A stretch of 64,000 nt of DNA, from positions 1 to 64,000 of the forward strand of contig DASVBS010000085.1 of NCBI GenBank assembly GCA_036375715.1, read 5' to 3'. The notes beneath the pieces were generated by a model. That model searched no databases and was not told the DNA's origin. It worked only from the letters and a program-made list of their open reading frames with translations. Shown here one piece after another: positions 1,300-62,950 of this stretch; positions within the stretch are counted from its first letter, which is position 1, and each line of letters starts with the position of its first letter. The stretch is from Longimicrobiaceae bacterium (lineage in GTDB: Bacteria > Gemmatimonadota > Gemmatimonadetes > Longimicrobiales > Longimicrobiaceae). A program made the translations under genes and the position numbers.

Positions 1300-2607
1300 A
1301 TGCCAGAGCGCCCGGTGGTTCTCGTCCATGGCTATTCCGATTCACACAGAGGCTTTCGCGTTTGGAAGGAAATCCTCGACACAGACTTCGACGTTCGGGT
1401 AGCCTCATACAAGTCCCTGACCAACGAGATCAGCATCAAGGACATTGCGGAGGGATTCGATCGTGCGCTCAGGTGCCAAGCCGGCTTGGATCAGGACCAG
1501 GACTTCGATGCTATCGTCCATTCGACAGGCATGCTCGTCCTCCGTTCCTGGCTTACGACGTACCCGCGTCGCAAGGATCGGCTGAAGCATCTGATAGCGC
1601 TGGCGCCTGCAACCTGGGGGTCGCCGCTCGCTCACAAGGGGCGTAGCTGGCTCGGCTCGGTCTTCAAGGGGAGCAAGAACATCCTCCGTCCGGACTTCCT
1701 CGAGGCAGGGGACGGGGTGCTCGACGGACTGGAACTGGGAAGCCGTTTCACGTGGGATCTGGCCCACCGGGACCTGTTTGGCGCAGAGATCTACTATGGT
1801 CCCAGTCGATACACGCCTTACGTGTTCACCTTCTGTGGGACAGAGGATTATGGTGGCGTGCGGAAGATCGTGAATGAGCCCGGCACGGACGGGACGGTAC
1901 GCCTCGCGGGCGTTGCCCTCAACAGCCGCAAGGCGATTATCGACCTGACCGAAAGACCGCAAGACCCCAAACGCGCCTACTTCACTGGTTTCAAGAGCGT
2001 TGACGACCTTCCAGTAGTGCTCATCGATGGAGTGAACCACGGGACCATCATGAGCCGGCCGACGCCCGAGCTCGTGCAGCTCGTGCGCTCGGGACTTAAG
2101 GTCGGGAACAAGCCGGCCTATGACAAGTGGTTGCGGGAAGCAGAAAGGGTGTCATCCAAAGGGAAGGACGGACCATGGCAGCAGTTCGTGGTTCGACTCG
2201 TCGACGAGAGGGGGGATCCTATCCCTGACTACAACGTGCGCCTATTTGAAGGTCGTCACGAGCTTCATGACTTCACGGCCGACGTGCACGCTTATAGCGG
2301 AGACAAGAGTCTACGGAATTTCCACGTGAATGTGAGCGAGCTCGCTGATCAAAAATTCACGAACCTGAGGATGCGCCTGATCGCGAGTTCGGGCACTCAG
2401 CTGGTAGGATACGTCGGTTACGGAAACGGGACTGGCGCGTCGCCGCATCCGACGATGGAAGTCGTGCTGGACATCACAAACCTCGTTACCGGCGACACCA
2501 AGCTCTTCTACCCGTTCACGACCACCCTGGTGGAGATCAAGCTCAATCGAGAGCCGCTGCCGTTGAACGGCGAGAGCCGTTTGTGTAGGATTTTGCGTGA
2601 ACTGTAG
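1300..2607 (+). CDS. alpha/beta-hydrolase (lipase/esterase-like) with C-terminal extension
   Basis: A 435-residue protein. The N-terminal half is an alpha/beta hydrolase: PVVLVHGYSDS (residues 5-15) supplies the oxyanion region, and IVHSTGM puts the likely nucleophile at Ser75 (the usual GxSxG is written HSTG here). GTDGTVRLAG and VNHGTIM (candidate catalytic His) follow in the order seen in lipase- and phospholipase-like hydrolases. From about residue 285 to 435 a second region rich in beta-strand residues resembles an accessory sandwich domain; I cannot name it. There is no signal peptide, so it is probably cytosolic. The substrate is unknown, probably an ester or lipid. The stop codon directly abuts a tandem-repeat array (see 2607-2912). 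Confidence 0.7.
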   Translation: MPERPVVLVHGYSDSHRGFRVWKEILDTDFDVRVASYKSLTNEISIKDIAEGFDRALRCQAGLDQDQDFDAIVHSTGMLVLRSWLTTYPRRKDRLKHLIALAPATWGSPLAHKGRSWLGSVFKGSKNILRPDFLEAGDGVLDGLELGSRFTWDLAHRDLFGAEIYYGPSRYTPYVFTFCGTEDYGGVRKIVNEPGTDGTVRLAGVALNSRKAIIDLTERPQDPKRAYFTGFKSVDDLPVVLIDGVNHGTIMSRPTPELVQLVRSGLKVGNKPAYDKWLREAERVSSKGKDGPWQQFVVRLVDERGDPIPDYNVRLFEGRHELHDFTADVHAYSGDKSLRNFHVNVSELADQKFTNLRMRLIASSGTQLVGYVGYGNGTGASPHPTMEVVLDITNLVTGDTKLFYPFTTTLVEIKLNREPLPLNGESRLCRILREL

Positions 2608-2912
2608 GTTATCCGTTGGACGTTATCCGTTATCCGTCATCCGTTGTACGTTATCAGTTGGGACAGGTTGTTTGCCTCGAGATCGACTGGTCGCCGTGAT
2701 GGTTATTAGCCATCAGAGTCACAACCAGTCTACAGCGCACAGGCTTGTCGGCTGGCTACAAGATCAGACCATTGGAGCCGCTCGACGCCTGAGCGCCAAT
2801 GACTTTCATCAGCTGAGTGCACCCGCCCAATTTGAGCTCGACCGCCTGGTCCCGACTGATAACTGATAATTGATAACCCACAACGGATAACGGATAACGG
2901 ATAACGGATAAC
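2607..2912. repeat. structured intergenic element bounded by inverted heptamer arrays (element A)
   Basis: The left array (2607-2660) is built of GTTATCC units and ends in GTTATCAGTT; the right array (about 2857-2912) is its inverted counterpart, ending in four GGATAAC units. Both go from a CCG-type unit outside to a TGATAA-type unit inside. The core adds a closing stem (AGTTGGGACAGG against CCTGGTCCCGACT) and two nested hairpins: GACTGGT/ACCAGTC around TGATGG/CCATCA, and ATTGG/CCAAT around CGCTC/GAGCG. The element fills the whole gap between two convergent genes and touches both stop codons to within 5 bp. An open frame across it (2597-2866) has no recognisable domain and looks non-coding. 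Confidence 0.75.
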
Positions 2913-2917
2913 CTTCC

Positions 2918-4690
2918 TCAGTATCCCGGATTCTGCACCAGCGCCGGATTCCGATTCATCTCGTCCCGATGGATCGGCATGAAATACATCTTGTCATCCC
3001 AGGCGCGGTTCTGGATGCTCTGCACCTCGTAGCGATAATTGGTCCAGGTGCTCCGGTCGGTGCGGCTCGTTCCCTCGATGTAGATGTTGATCCCCCGCGC
3101 GTTCTCCGAGAATTCCTCCGGGGCGATCATCCACCGACGCACGTCGAAGAAGCGCTGCTCCTCATAGGCCATCTCGATCCGCCGTTCGTTGCGGTATTCC
3201 TCGCGCAGCGCATCCTGCCCCATGGAGGCCGAAAGCTCGGGCATCCCCGCCCGCCGCCGGATCTGATTGAGCGCCATCACCGCATCATCCAGCTCCCCCA
3301 GCTCGATCGAGGCCTCGGCGTAGTTCAGCAGGATCTCCGCGTAACGGAAGAAGATCCAGGGGATCTCCTGCTTAGTGAACTGATGGTTCACGGTCGGATC
3401 GATGAACTTCCGCAGATAGTATCCCGAATAGCTCCCATTCCAGTCCTCGATCGGGCTGTCGCGGGTATCTACCCCCGGAAACGTACGCCCGTCGGGGAGG
3501 GTCAGCCGGCGGAATGTCTGGATGATGCCGTAAGGCTCGATCTCCATCACGTCGTCTGGACGCTCTCGCCATTCGGCCCCGTCGTACAGGATGGTCCCGT
3601 AGAAGCGCGGATCGCGGCTGTCGTACGGCGAGGCCGCGTGCTCGGGATTGCCCCAGTCGAACGGAGCGCCGTCCAGCATCCGGTAGTCGTCGACCAGGTT
3701 CTGGGTGGGCGTGTTCCCGGCCCAGTTGTGGAATCCGTTGGGGCCATTGTGCAGCCCGGGGTGGTAGCCGTCGTCCCGCGTGCGCAGGAAGAACCGACTG
3801 AGGATCACCTCCTCGCTGATCTTCTGGAGGAACAGGTCCGCGTAGTTCTGCGCTGCTTCCTCGGGCGTAGCAGGATCCGGCCGGAAGAGACCATACACGC
3901 CGAGATCCATCACCTCCTTGGCGGCATCCTTCGCGGCGCGCCACATCGCCTGTCGATCCTGCGGCGTGGTATAGCCCGTTTCGGCCATGCCACTCGGGTT
4001 CTCGTGATACAGGTCGCTGGCCGCGTAGAGCAGCACACGAGCTTTGAGCGCCAATGCGGCCCCTTTGGTTGCCCTTCCCAGGTTCGAAGCTTCCACCGGT
4101 AGCAGCTCGGCAGCCTGGGTAGCGTCCGCCAGGATGAAGTCGACCGTTTCCTCGAAGCTGCTCCGCGGGATCTCGTAGTCGTCATTCAGGCCGTACACTT
4201 CGGTGACCAGAGGCACCCCTCCGTACATGCGCAGCAGATTGTGGTAGAAGTAGGCGCGCAGGAAAAGCGCTTCCCCCTTCATCTGCCGCTTCCGCTCCTC
4301 GTCGTACGTGGTCGAGTCGATCCTCGAGAGGACGAGGTTCGCCTGACGGATGCGGAAGTAATTGTCCCCCCAGTCGAAATGGTTGAAGCGACCGTCGTCG
4401 ATCGCCCCGCGGTCACTGGGGGAGATGATGGCCTGTACGACCTTGTCGGTATTGTAGCCGTGGACGAAATGGGCCTCGTCGCTCAGGGAGCTGAGCATGA
4501 TCTCGTAGAGACCGTGTCCCATCCCCAGATAGATGTCGTTGAGGAATGCCTGCGTGAGGTTCGGATCCTCGAAGATGGCCTCTTCCGCGATCTGATCCTT
4601 GGGTGAGACGTCCAGAACGGACGAATCACACGCTGCCAGCCCGCAAACGGCCAGGAGGGCAGCTCCGACCAGAGAAAGATGGTGCCTCAT
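2918..4690 (-). CDS. RagB/SusD-family outer-membrane glycan-binding lipoprotein
   Basis: A 590-residue surface lipoprotein that captures oligosaccharides and works as the lid of the adjacent SusC-type channel. A lipoprotein signal ends at Cys21 (GLAAC), followed by the SusD N-terminal block (DVSPKDQIAEEAIFED), the TPR-like middle (GEALFLRAYFYHNLLRMYGG) and the conserved C-terminal motifs LNQIRRRAGMP and RRIEMAYEEQRFFDVRRW; it ends in the usual NPGY. I take the ATG at 4690, which has GGAGGG upstream; an ATG at 4702 overlaps the SusC stop codon and would add four residues. It lies directly downstream of susC, as expected. The glycan specificity is unknown. Confidence 0.95.
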   Translation of the reverse strand: MRHHLSLVGAALLAVCGLAACDSSVLDVSPKDQIAEEAIFEDPNLTQAFLNDIYLGMGHGLYEIMLSSLSDEAHFVHGYNTDKVVQAIISPSDRGAIDDGRFNHFDWGDNYFRIRQANLVLSRIDSTTYDEERKRQMKGEALFLRAYFYHNLLRMYGGVPLVTEVYGLNDDYEIPRSSFEETVDFILADATQAAELLPVEASNLGRATKGAALALKARVLLYAASDLYHENPSGMAETGYTTPQDRQAMWRAAKDAAKEVMDLGVYGLFRPDPATPEEAAQNYADLFLQKISEEVILSRFFLRTRDDGYHPGLHNGPNGFHNWAGNTPTQNLVDDYRMLDGAPFDWGNPEHAASPYDSRDPRFYGTILYDGAEWRERPDDVMEIEPYGIIQTFRRLTLPDGRTFPGVDTRDSPIEDWNGSYSGYYLRKFIDPTVNHQFTKQEIPWIFFRYAEILLNYAEASIELGELDDAVMALNQIRRRAGMPELSASMGQDALREEYRNERRIEMAYEEQRFFDVRRWMIAPEEFSENARGINIYIEGTSRTDRSTWTNYRYEVQSIQNRAWDDKMYFMPIHRDEMNRNPALVQNPGY

Positions 4691-4701
4691 GATGCCCTCC
4701 A

Positions 4702-7700
4702 TCAGAATGTGACGGTCGTTCCGACATTGAACACGCGCTTCTGGGGGTAGTACATGCCCTGCGGATGACGAACTTCAGGATCCATGTACTTGAACTTGTC
4801 CCAGGTGAGGAGGTTGAATGCTCCCACGTAGACGCGCATGGCGTCGATTCCGAGGGCAGCGGTGAGGCGCGCCGGCAGCGTATAGCCGACGTCAACCGTC
4901 TTGAGCCGGATGTAGTCGGTGCTCCTGAGGAAATAGGTGTTGTCGTTCGCGACCCAGTACTCGTCCTGGCGATTGTACGCCCGGGGATGCTTCGAATTGG
5001 GACTCTCGGGCGTCCAGCGGTTCTCGGCGAAGGCCTTCAGGTAGTTGCCAATGTCGCCGGAGAGCGTCTCCAGGTACTGGACGCCGCCCATGGCCCCCTG
5101 AAAGAAGACGCTCGCATCGAAGTCGCGGTACTGCAGACCCAGCGTCAGCCCGCCGTTGAAGGTCGGCTCGCTGTTCTTGTTGATCCGCACCCGGTCGTCG
5201 CTGTTGATCATCCCATCGTCGTTGACATCCTCGAAGATGATGTCGCCGGGTCGCGCGCCGGGCCAATGCGGATACGCGTCCACCGCCGCCTGATCCTCGA
5301 AGACGCCGATCGCCTTGTAATACAGTCCCGTCCCCATCCGCCGCCCGGTGGAGCGCTGCCACTCGGGCGCGCCAGCGGGTTCATCCCAGTCGATGATCTT
5401 GTTCTGGGAGTAACCCAGGTTGAGGGTGATGTCGTAGGAGGTCCTCTCCCCGACCGCGTCACTCCAGCTCAGGCTCCCGTCCCACCCCCAGCTCGCGACT
5501 TCGCCGATGTTCTCCCGCGGCAGGCTGAGGCCGCTGGTCTGCGGAACGGAGGCGTTTCGCCAGTGGAGGATGTCCTTCCTCCGGTAGTTGTAGTAGTCGA
5601 ATACGAATGACAATCGGTGATCGAACAGCGCACCCTCGACGCCGACGTCGAGCTGGTTCGCCACCTCCCAGGTGACATTCGGATTGGGGGTGCGCGTCTG
5701 ATAGACGCTCTTGGCTTCCTGGTCGATGTCGAAGACGTAGCCACCCCCGAACCCGTACGTGGCGAGGTACTGCCACTCGTCGATTCGGTCGTTGCCGGTC
5801 TGCCCCCACGAAGCGCGCAGCTTCAGATCGTCGAAAATCGGAACGGCGTTCCGGAAGAAGTCTTCCTCGGACAGGCGCCAGCCCGCCGAGACCGCGGGGA
5901 AGAAGCCGAACCGCTTTTCTTCCGGGAAGATGTATGAGCCGTCGTATCGGCCCACGAACTCGAGGAGATACTTGTCGTGGTAGTCGTAGTTGATGCGCGT
6001 GAAGTAGTTCTGCCGCGCGGAAACGCTGGCGCTCCCCCAGTTGTTCTTCTCGGCGTCGCCCCCGGCGAACATCTGATCGATCTGATCGGAGACGAAATGC
6101 TTGCGAAAAGCACCGAGATTTTCGCCTTCTCCCGTCTGTCGCTCGACGCCTCCCAGTATCGCGAGCGAGTGGGAGCCGAAGTCGCGACGATACTCGGTGA
6201 CGAAGTTGAGTAGCGCGCTCTCGTATCGCTCGTTGGCTTGCTCCAGCTCAGGCTCGCTGTAGCCTCGCTGCGCAGGCTGAAGGACGGGCTCTCCGTTGGC
6301 GTCCCGCGTCTCGTAGTCCCAGGTGTACAGCGTCCAGGGAGTCCTCCACGTCTTGCGGTACCGGCTCATATGGTCCAGCGCCGCCGTTGCCCGCAGCGTC
6401 AATCCGTCTATACCGGGAACGGCGAAGTCGAAACCGAGATTCCCCTGCAGGTAATAGCGCTCATCGTTGTCGTAGCCGGTCGCCGGCGTGCCGATCACGA
6501 CGGGGTTGTCACCATACTGGATATCCGGACCGGGAAGACCATTGGGCCAGTACGCGGGCATGTTCGGCTTGCCCATCATGACGGCCTGGAAGAGGTAGAA
6601 TGAGCTTCTAGTCGGAAGGTTCCGGTCTTCCAGACGACCCGTCACATCAAATCGGAGGGCCAGGTTGTCTGTGATCTCGCCGTCGATATTGCTGCGGAAG
6701 CTGTACTGGTTGTAACGGGTGGCGCTGTTTCGGTAGAAGCCGTCTTCGGTGAGACCGCCGAGCGAGAGGTAGTAACGCATGCGCTCGCCACCGCCACGCA
6801 GCGACACGTCGCCGCGCGACTGCATGGATACCGGCTTGATTACTTCCTGGAACCAGTCGGTATTCGGATAGAGCCAGGGATCGGCTCCTTCGCGGAAATT
6901 GCGGATTTCCTCCTCGCTGTAACGCGGCGTCCTGTCGCGGTACATGTCGATCTCATTGAGCATCGCCATGTACGTCGCGGCGTCCGCCATCTCCGGCAGG
7001 CGAGTGGGCTGATTGAACCCGTGGTTGACCGACACGGAAAGGGTCGGCTCGCCGCTCGTGCCTCGCTTCGTCGTCACCAGGATCACGCCGTTCGCGGCGC
7101 GAGATCCGTAGATCGCCGCCGAGGCATCCTTCAGAACGCTGATGCTTTCGATGTCCTGCGGCGCGATCCGCTCGAGGCCGCCGGCGCGATTCGGAACTCC
7201 GTCGATGACGACGAGCGGACTGTTGTCGTTCAGCGTCTGGCTGCCGCGAATCCGGATGCTCGAACCGTCGAATCCCGGCTCTCCACTGGCGTTTACGGTC
7301 ACCACGCCCGGGAGCTTGCCACCGACCGAGTTCGACAGGTTGGGAATGGGCACCGACTCCAGTTCCTCACCGTCCACCGCGGAGACGGCGCCCGTCAGCG
7401 TCTCCTTCCTCTGCGTCCCGTAGCCCACCGCCACGATGCCTTCCAGCTCGAGCGCCTGTGGGGTGAGCGAGATCGCGACGTTTGCGACACCACCAGCCGT
7501 CACCGAAACGTCTACGGTCTGCCCACTGTACCCGATGAGGCTCGCTCGCAGGGTATGATCTCCCGCCGGCACGCCTTCGATGGCGAACGTGCCAGTCGCG
7601 CCCGACGTAGTGCCTATGCTCGTTCCGACGACCTGAATGCTGACGCCGGATAGAGGCTGCCCATTGTCGTCGGCCACGGTTCCAGTAACCCGCCCCACCG

Positions 7701-20540: not shown

Positions 20541-20577
20541 CCACAAACGGATAACGGATAGCGGATAACGGATAACC
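20541..20577. repeat. one-sided GGATAAC heptamer array (element F)
   Basis: Four GGATAAC-like units (one reads GGATAGC) ending 8 bp from the cytochrome c stop codon. The flank (CCACAAACGG) resembles the right arm of element A (CCCACAACGG), but no inverted partner array is visible on the other side. Confidence 0.7.
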
Positions 20578-27405: not shown

Positions 27406-27629
27406 CGGGGTGAGGGGGTGACAAGGTGAACGGCTGATGGACGGTAGTCCCCCACCTTCGCCTCGGAAGATCGGGAGGCGCTGGCCTTCGCCTACAAAGC
27501 AGCCCGCCACGCCGTTGCAACTCGCCCCCGCTCCTCGAAGCCACCGAAGGATTGCGCGGTCGACCGGCATCTTCAGCCGTTAACAAAGCTGCGGCAGGCC
27601 CGTTCACCTTGTCACCTTGTCACTCCTTG
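27397..27629. repeat. structured intergenic element bounded by inverted octamer arrays (element C)
   Basis: The left array (27397-27433) reads AAGGAGTGAC...GTGACAAGGTGAACGG and overlaps the epimerase stop codon. The right array (27599-27629) is the inverted copy (CCGTTCACCTTGTCAC...CTCCTTG). The 165-bp core has a hairpin CGCCTC/GAGGCG and a long-range stem AACGGCTGA (27429-27437) against TCAGCCGTT (27573-27581) that competes with array pairing. The right end supplies part of the -35 box of the next gene. Confidence 0.7.
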
Positions 27630-49079: not shown

Positions 49080-49991
49080 ATGAACACCATGACCGAGCAA
49101 ACCGCGAACGCCACCCCGAGCGAAGACAGGTCCCGGAGCAGAGGCAGGGGGAAGACACCGCCCACCAGCCCCGACACCATCGTCCTCGTTCACGGCTTCT
49201 GGGTGACCCCTCGCAGCTGGGAGCGCTGGATCCCCTACTATCAGGGGAAGGGATACCGCGTCCTGGCCCCCGCCTATCCGGGGCTGGAGGTGGAGGTCGA
49301 GGCGCTGAACAGCGACCCCTCCCGCATCGAGCAGCTGACCGTTCGGGCGATCATCGACCACCTGGAGGAGATCGTACGCCGGGTGGATCCCCCACCCATC
49401 CTGATGGGGCACTCCGCGGGCGGGGCGTTCGTGCAGATCCTGCTCGACCACGGGTATGGCGCGGCAGGCATCGTCATCGACTCGGCGCCGACCGAGGGCG
49501 TCCTGGTGGCGCCCCTATCACAACTCCGGTCGACGTTCCCGGTACTGAGAGATCCGGCCAACCACCACCGAGCGGTGGGGCTCACCTTCGAGCAGTGGAA
49601 TTACGCCTTCACGAACACCGTCGGCGAGGCCGAGTCGCGGGAGTTTTACGAGCGCTACCACGTACCGGCGTCGGGCAGGATCGTCTGGGACGGCGTGCTG
49701 GCCAATTTCATCCCGGGACCGCAGGGCGTCTTCGTCGACTATCATAATGACGCCCGCGCGCCGCTCCTGTTCATCTCGGGTGCCGAAGACCACCTCATGC
49801 CGCCGTCCGTGCAGCGGTCGAACGCCCGGCACTACAAGTCGGCAACGGTCACGGAGGTGAAGGAATTCCCCGGCCGCGCGCACCTGATGCCGGCTCTTCC
49901 CGGCTGGGAGGAGGTCGCCGATTTCGCGCTCGACTGGGCCAGCCGGCACGTCCACATCGACGCCGCACACGCGAATCCCGCTGAGTCGTGA
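49080..49991 (+). CDS. alpha/beta-hydrolase
   Basis: 303 residues. After a polar, Arg-rich N-terminus (about 30 residues): TIVLVHGFWVTPRSWERWIP, the nucleophile elbow GHSAGG, an acid-bearing strand (LFISGAEDHLMPP) and the His in GRAHLMP. All three catalytic positions are visible. No secretion signal. The ATG at 49080 has GAAGGAG 6 bp before it. Its stop codon overlaps the first GTGACAAG unit of element D. An 84-bp leader resembles that of the next hydrolase at 50290, so both may respond to the same sigma factor or regulator. Esterase or haloperoxidase-like activity; the substrate is unknown. Confidence 0.82.
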   Translation: MNTMTEQTANATPSEDRSRSRGRGKTPPTSPDTIVLVHGFWVTPRSWERWIPYYQGKGYRVLAPAYPGLEVEVEALNSDPSRIEQLTVRAIIDHLEEIVRRVDPPPILMGHSAGGAFVQILLDHGYGAAGIVIDSAPTEGVLVAPLSQLRSTFPVLRDPANHHRAVGLTFEQWNYAFTNTVGEAESREFYERYHVPASGRIVWDGVLANFIPGPQGVFVDYHNDARAPLLFISGAEDHLMPPSVQRSNARHYKSATVTEVKEFPGRAHLMPALPGWEEVADFALDWASRHVHIDAAHANPAES

Positions 49992-50160
49992 CAAGGTGAC
50001 AAGGTGACAAGGTGAACGGGTGGCGGGACAGACAAGGAGACGAGGCGACAAGGAGGAAGGGTTGGCCGGCCTGGGCTCTCGAGCCGTTCACCTTGTCACC
50101 TTGTCACCTTGTCACCTTGTCACCTTGTCACCTTGTCACCTTGTCACCCTGTCACCCTCT
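49988..50160. repeat. inverted octamer-array element (element D)
   Basis: The left array: three exact GTGACAAG units plus GTGAACGG (49988-50019), overlapping the hydrolase stop codon. The right array (50084-50160): CCGTTCAC, then seven TTGTCACC units and one CTGTCACC, in inverted orientation. The 64-bp core contains GGCTC/GAGCC and GGCCGGCC dyads. Same unit and same inner GTGAACGG boundary as element C. Confidence 0.8.
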
Positions 50161-50289
50161 CGAGTCATCGCTCTGCCGCCCCCGCCCGACTAGGGTCCTC
50201 ACCAGTCATCCCCCTGACGCGACCCCGGGGCGGAAGGGCGATCGTGCTCCTCGCAAACCGTCGGATCAACCTGCACCGAGGAGCACACG

Positions 50290-62626: not shown

Positions 62627-62757
62627 GGGGAGGTCACGTGCCTGACGAGGATCGGAGGATCTGTCGAAGAAGGGAGGGCAGCGATGAAGAAGGGATGAGA
62701 CAGCAGGATGCAGGTGGCGAGCCGCGGAAGCAATAGTGGCGGCGGAGCGGGCCGGAT

Positions 62758-62950
62758 AATTACGAATTACGGTGACGTACGCTCCCCGCACTGATAAGGT
62801 TCTGACTGCCTTGCCCTGATTTACTGTTTTTGTCACCCTTAGCGGAGCGAAGGATCGCGCCGCAGCCATGCCGGCACTCGATCCTTAGTCTCTTTCGGCC
62901 CGGTCGTTCGTTGAGGCGTAATTCGTAATTTGTAGTTCGTAATTTTTCGC
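62758..62950. repeat. inverted heptamer-array element (element E)
   Basis: The left array (62758-62771) has two AATTACG units; the right array (62918-62950) has inverted CGTAATT-type units with two variants. The core folds: GGTGAC (62771-62776) against GTCACC (62832-62837), and AAGGATCG (62850-62857) against CGATCCTT (62879-62886) around GCCG/CGGC. The AGCGGAGCGAAGGATCG wording is a type of intergenic sequence I have seen in many high-GC genomes. The right array ends about 7 bp from the HAD stop codon. It fills most of the 330-bp gap 62627-62956. Confidence 0.6.

Follow-up and report, generated by a model that had tools for sequence, protein, structure and literature searches.

What is the long inverted repeat that fills the gap between two convergent genes near the start of this DNA, and does it belong to that gap alone? 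The window, meaning the whole stretch of 64,000 nucleotides that was analysed, covers positions 1-64000 of contig C85 in genome G000 (4.37 Mb in 87 contigs). An initial annotation had pointed to a mirrored array with a multi-stem core, here called Element A, and had taken it for a structured RNA tied to its convergent gap. The observation is confirmed as real, whereas the interpretation is partly supported. We consider it likely that Element A belongs, as a non-coding and MITE-like representative, to a dispersed family of insertions associated with S23p, the protein family PF05635, and is not a gene-specific RNA. S23p-coding elements and the intervening sequences (IVSs) of rRNA are probably its relatives.

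Architecture of Element A and its dispersed siblings

Element A extends from 2608 to 2912 and consists of two facing arrays, (GTTATCC)n and (GGATAAC)n, with a core of about 180 nt between them. The left arm (2608-2659) is built of GTTATCC-type tandem heptamers with the variants GTTGGAC, GTCATCC, GTTGTAC and GTTATCA, and it runs into a left inner terminal motif, AGTTGGGACAGG (2656-2667). The core (2668-2844) has predicted hairpins at about 2685-2730 and 2735-2796 and is followed by the right inner terminal motif, CCTGGTCCCGACT (2845-2857), and by the right arm (2856-2912), whose tandem heptamers of the form GATAACN are inverted with respect to the left arm. The two mirrored arrays are thus where they had been described. 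The imperfect symmetry of about 55 bp also holds, with an inverted repeat of 57 nt (2608-2664 with 2849-2905) that is 77% complementary overall and 90% complementary over its best 39 nt. With up to two mismatches, GTTATCCGTTATC is matched 12 times in the window versus 0.39 expected, and nine of the 12 matches lie in Element A.

The upstream gene (1300-2607, + strand) is alpha/beta-hydrolase-like, with a weak Palm_thioest match under the curated cut-off, and its stop codon ends at 2607, directly abutting the element. On the other side, a SusD-family gene (2918-4702, - strand) has its stop codon at 2918-2920, 5 nt from Element A. The element therefore occupies the gap to within 5 nt, which bears out the earlier statement that it spans from stop to stop.

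Other arrays are found in the same window. An unpaired GGATAAC array at 20546-20576 lies 9 nt from a stop codon, and its left partner was not found. At 49985-50163, inverted octamer arrays, (GTGACAAG)n and (TCACCTTG)n, enclose a core of about 70 nt; the architecture is that of Element A, but the unit has 8 nt. The pair detector reported a further inverted pair of these octamers at 27407-27626. A degenerate inverted element of GAATTAC and GTAATTC units is present at 62755-62946; the GAATTAC unit also brackets a PF05635 gene on contig C76.

The arms of Element A recur throughout the genome, where GATAACNGATAACNGATAAC (up to two mismatches) has 162 matches versus 0 for the reversed control. Among the strong arrays examined, Element A included, 51 of 59 are paired convergently with another array no more than 420 bp away, and divergent pairs are absent; these family counts come from pattern searches and fetched stretches rather than from a full census. 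Thirty paired elements were measured and range from 84 to 305 bp (median 142), Element A being the longest. An inner terminal motif with a consensus of about GTCGGGACCGG (up to two mismatches) follows the arrays in 15/30 halves on the left and 15/30 on the right, compared with 16% of genomic 75-mers. The closing stem that had been noted in Element A, AGTTGGGACAGG with CCTGGTCCCGACT, is present as described, but it is this inner terminal motif of the family. The family is thus multi-copy with conserved terminal inverted repeats, as expected of MITEs. The cores are mostly unrelated to one another, and nothing homologous to that of Element A was found in the rest of the G000 genome.

The initial annotation had also remarked that both arms change unit in the same order. 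Although this order is visible in Element A, it is not specific to the element: over the 30 elements, arms within an element match no better than arms of different elements (permutation P = 0.70 and 0.56), and a mirrored order is not significant as a sign of arm copying. Some single elements, such as L105, do have identical arms. Two loci (L048 and L034) hold hybrid arrays of GAATTAC, GGATTAC and GGATAAC units, which suggests that units evolve into one another or that arrays recombine.

The association with S23p genes

In the order, 23 of 99 genomes carry PF05635 (23S_rRNA_IVP, or S23p), a relative of which has been solved (XCC0516, 2gsc); all 23 belong to families f1 and f2, with none in the sampled f3 genomes. 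Inverted tandem arrays, mostly of 7-nt units, bracket 21 of the 31 PF05635 loci of the order versus 4 of 2000 control intervals, with about a third of these genes falling below the array detector. The same arrangement extends to other phyla. Of 20 genomes chosen across phyla only for containing (GTTATCC)4, 15 have PF05635, and in this set 8 of 30 PF05635 loci are bracketed versus 0/3000 controls, with a period of 7 in seven of the eight and with most of the genes sampled falling below the detector. However, the heptamer sequence by itself is not diagnostic, since (GTTATCC)4 occurs in many phyla and mostly as unpaired arrays: eight of 80 loci were paired and one had an S23p ORF. A diagnostic value of the GTTATCC heptamer was rejected on this ground.

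Inverted 7- or 8-mer pairs in ribosomal regions follow the presence of the gene. Genomes with PF05635 gave 20 such pairs in 191.5 kb, distributed over 7 of 14 genomes (a count that takes in several genomes of one genus), versus none in 180.9 kb from ten genomes without PF05635. At the level of single units, the PF05635 gene of G002 (C258:10369-10680) lies between CGATAAC arrays, and a non-coding element at nusG|rplK is built of this unit too. Likewise, in G001 the GGCTATC unit is common to the PF05635 gene and to the rpsK|rpsD element.

Such sharing was found in G001 and G002 but not for Element A. The two PF05635 genes of G000 are bracketed by other units, GAATTAC in one case and GGAGCCA/GAAGCCA in the other, and not by GGATAAC, so that a coding element with Element A's own unit was not found. 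Its tie to S23p therefore runs through architecture and relatives alone. Ten cores, among them that of Element A, were tested for a remnant of PF05635 and none was detected, and the idea that Element A is a decayed S23p gene was rejected on this ground.

Some PF05635 loci have arrays of unusual extent or sequence. In G037, the gene at L120 is flanked on both sides by very long GGAAAGC/GGAAGGC arrays. In Desulfobacterales, heptamers of the TTAACCC type, which resemble telomere repeats, bracket PF05635 genes at L255 and L270.

Probable insertion, turnover and alternative origins

Comparison between relatives points to a rapid turnover of the elements. Within the family to which G000 belongs, the corresponding gaps are either short or filled by hairpins of other units, namely GGCTATC in G001, CGATAAC in G002 and AGTGCCC in G007. 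In another genus of this family (g8), the genomes G013 and G014 share 95.8% identity along 15.3 kb, and nearly every dissimilar stretch between them is a heptamer element. After the rpsK stop, these two genomes have different elements at precisely one position, with GGGACTA/GGGAATA units in G013 and GGGGAAT units in G014; G017 has no element there, its TAAG running directly to GCAGTTCC bar 3 nt. The secY|adk gap contains an element in G013 and none in G014. In addition, the rplX|rplE element (L035:6365-6499) has an inverted counterpart at an unrelated locus (L041:3508-3642, contig C22) to which it is about 77% identical from end to end. From these alignments, we interpret the occupied and empty sites together with the inverted copy as whole elements being inserted and copied.

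In the model that we favour, each element consists of terminal inverted repeats, made of tandem heptamers and a short inner motif, around a variable core. Siblings of the same architecture with a longer core encode S23p, a four-helix-bundle protein of the PF05635 family; these coding forms may represent a fuller version, from which Element A would be a MITE-like derivative. The elements would spread by DNA or RNA insertion through some machinery in which S23p would take part. Insertion after a stop codon would be tolerated because the hairpin could split the transcript harmlessly, for example through RNase III, as IVSs are excised, and the elements would bring the host no specific benefit. A broader generalisation, which we offer tentatively and with more doubt than belief, is that a hitherto unrecognised class of minimal mobile elements exists in several phyla. 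Its complete form would comprise only an S23p gene of about 115 aa between inverted heptamer arrays, its non-autonomous forms, Element A among them, would be short hairpins that insert repeatedly after stop codons, no canonical transposase or reverse transcriptase of their own would be needed for movement, and rRNA IVSs would be those members that landed in rRNA.

Could the hairpins instead have formed where they stand? Hairpins after stop codons would then gain heptamer arrays by slippage, template switching would keep the arms complementary, and recombination between arrays would share out a unit, all with no mobile element. Clean occupied and empty alleles at rpsK|rpsD and secY|adk are difficult to reconcile with such an origin, as is the copy of a whole element, with a homologous core, at an unrelated locus. 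What appears to be one PF05635 locus in genus g8, with a shared flanking gene and related genes (L101, L109, L122, L124 and L126), is more favourable to it. The array units at this locus differ between the five genomes (GTGCGTGA, AAGTGCT, AAGTCCT and TAGTCCT), and both arms are still matched where AAGTGCT, AAGTCCT and TAGTCCT replace one another between species. Since the gene persists and the unit differs, arms may also change in place, and some of the unit change may be turnover of this kind and not transposition. The mostly unrelated cores and the commonness of unpaired heptamer arrays in other bacteria point in the same direction, as does the fact that no target-site duplication was seen in the listed G000 flanks or at the occupied and empty sites of G013, G014 and G017. 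Formation in situ does not predict a non-repeat inner motif common to many elements, nor the pronounced enrichment of arrays that is seen around PF05635 genes, and we regard it as an unlikely account of the family as a whole.

The positions of the elements relative to genes raise a different possibility, namely that they are functional RNA structures at 3' ends (stabilisers, processing sites or attenuators, similar to REP/BIME) which the host retains. Based on gene calls by codon model, 28 of 36 classified elements lie in co-directional gaps, eight in convergent gaps and none in divergent gaps, at a median distance of about 10 nt from the stop codon. Convergent gaps are therefore not special, and the proposed tie of Element A to its gap is not supported. 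Ten elements lie within the most conserved operons (ribosomal-protein, tuf, nusG and rpoB); the sites, with gene names assigned from translated sequences, are after both tuf copies, nusG, rpoB, rplB, rpsQ, rplX, secY, rpsK and a map-like gene. This arrangement is compatible with transcription of the essential genes downstream.

The strictly post-stop location would suit a 3'-end function, but selection against damage elsewhere explains it equally well. Such a function would also agree with the predicted hairpins, which are very stable on either strand: as RNA, the whole of Element A has a fold z of -9.0 (+ strand) and -10.2 (- strand) relative to shuffled sequence, and by this modelling it can adopt a long hairpin fold with branches, as had been proposed. 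The core alone is marginally better than shuffled sequence (z = -1.9 and -2.4), so that the stability comes from the arms. Against a 3'-end function, the corresponding gaps of relatives are empty or contain different units, the cores are mostly unrelated, and a terminator signature is lacking. Element A itself was ruled out as an intrinsic terminator, as no U-tract follows the stem-loop and many siblings lie between genes of ribosomal operons; in this respect the initial annotation, which had set it apart from a simple terminator, was correct. Retention for a 3'-end function thus seems very improbable. Hardly credible is the original reading of Element A as a dedicated regulatory RNA of its convergent gap, for although the predicted fold is branched and the core is single-copy in the genome, Rfam 15 gave no match at gathering score across the 64-kb window, the core folds marginally, no homologous cores were found to align for covariation, the arms are genome-wide repeats that surround unrelated cores at dozens of loci, and the siblings are mostly in co-directional gaps.

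Comparison with known systems

As a likely MITE-like insertion, Element A can be placed among several kinds of dispersed repeat. Like MITEs and foldback elements, the family is non-autonomous and dispersed and has terminal inverted repeats; arms made of tandem repeats are a feature of eukaryotic foldback elements. In the flanks inspected no target-site duplication was seen, the cores are mostly unrelated, and no partner transposase was found among the transposition-related families searched in G000 (Y1_Tnp and reverse transcriptase). Reverse transcriptase (PF00078) is absent from this genome, which is about 95% complete, and a retroelement (DGR, group II intron or retron) was rejected accordingly.

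REP/BIME sequences and REPINs, the latter mobilised by RAYT, are short, inverted, extragenic and dispersed, often in 3' regions. The elements described here are likewise short, inverted, extragenic and dispersed. Unlike in REPINs, the arms are tandem heptamer arrays and not single REP units, and the RAYT profile (Y1_Tnp, PF01797) has no match in G000, whereas 5 of 14 control genomes give hits. Membership of Element A in the REPIN/RAYT system was rejected for this reason.

Heptanucleotide repeats were also described in the P6b stem of the Nostoc tRNA-Leu intron. According to the available part of that report, complementary 7-nt repeats occupy both sides of the hairpin, as in the present elements, and the repeat class was replaced several times independently with the structure kept (PMC4476775). 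The same part of the report describes one fixed group I intron site, not dispersed, and mentions no associated gene, which differs from the family here (PMC4476775).

The intergenic heptamer repeats (TAACTGA and others) of Beggiatoaceae, Cyanobacteria and Bacteroidetes are similar in being tandem and intergenic, in including rotations of GATAACT and in occurring near ribosomal protein genes as well (PMC4679880). Those repeats are mostly direct arrays located just before start codons, with one inverted case, while the arrays of Element A and its family are convergently paired and follow stop codons. Neither '23S' nor 'four helix' appears in the text of that paper (PMC4679880). A link between S23p and heptamers could account for part of the intergenic heptamer repeats that have been reported in bacterial genomes without an explanation. 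In a search that covered mainly the non-subscription literature, we found no paper that ties S23p genes to inverted heptamer arrays.

S23p is a widespread bacterial protein family with no assigned function. Besides coding IVSs, short non-coding versions exist in Salmonella, and the present family likewise has both forms. In Coxiella burnetii, the S23p ORF of the IVS, an element described as selfish, is preceded by three heptamers in tandem, and the ends of this IVS make a stem of 28 bp (PMC4990558). A mobile origin of IVSs has only been hypothesised (PMC4990558). The family described here resembles the 23S rRNA IVSs of Coxiella and Leptospira in its terminal inverted repeats joined in a long stem, its PF05635 protein, its sporadic occurrence and the tandem heptamers that precede the ORF in Coxiella (PMC4990558). 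Element A has the long terminal inverted repeats that make the closing stem of an IVS. In contrast to IVSs, which lie inside rRNA helices, the family elements have arms of tandem heptamers and are found, dozens of times over, after the stops of protein genes; Element A itself lies between two protein genes and not inside an rRNA gene, and unlike the S23p-carrying IVSs it is non-coding. Arrays around S23p genes outside rRNA, together with non-coding insertions of the same unit in the essential operons of relatives, make the idea that S23p and the IVSs belong to mobile elements directly testable.
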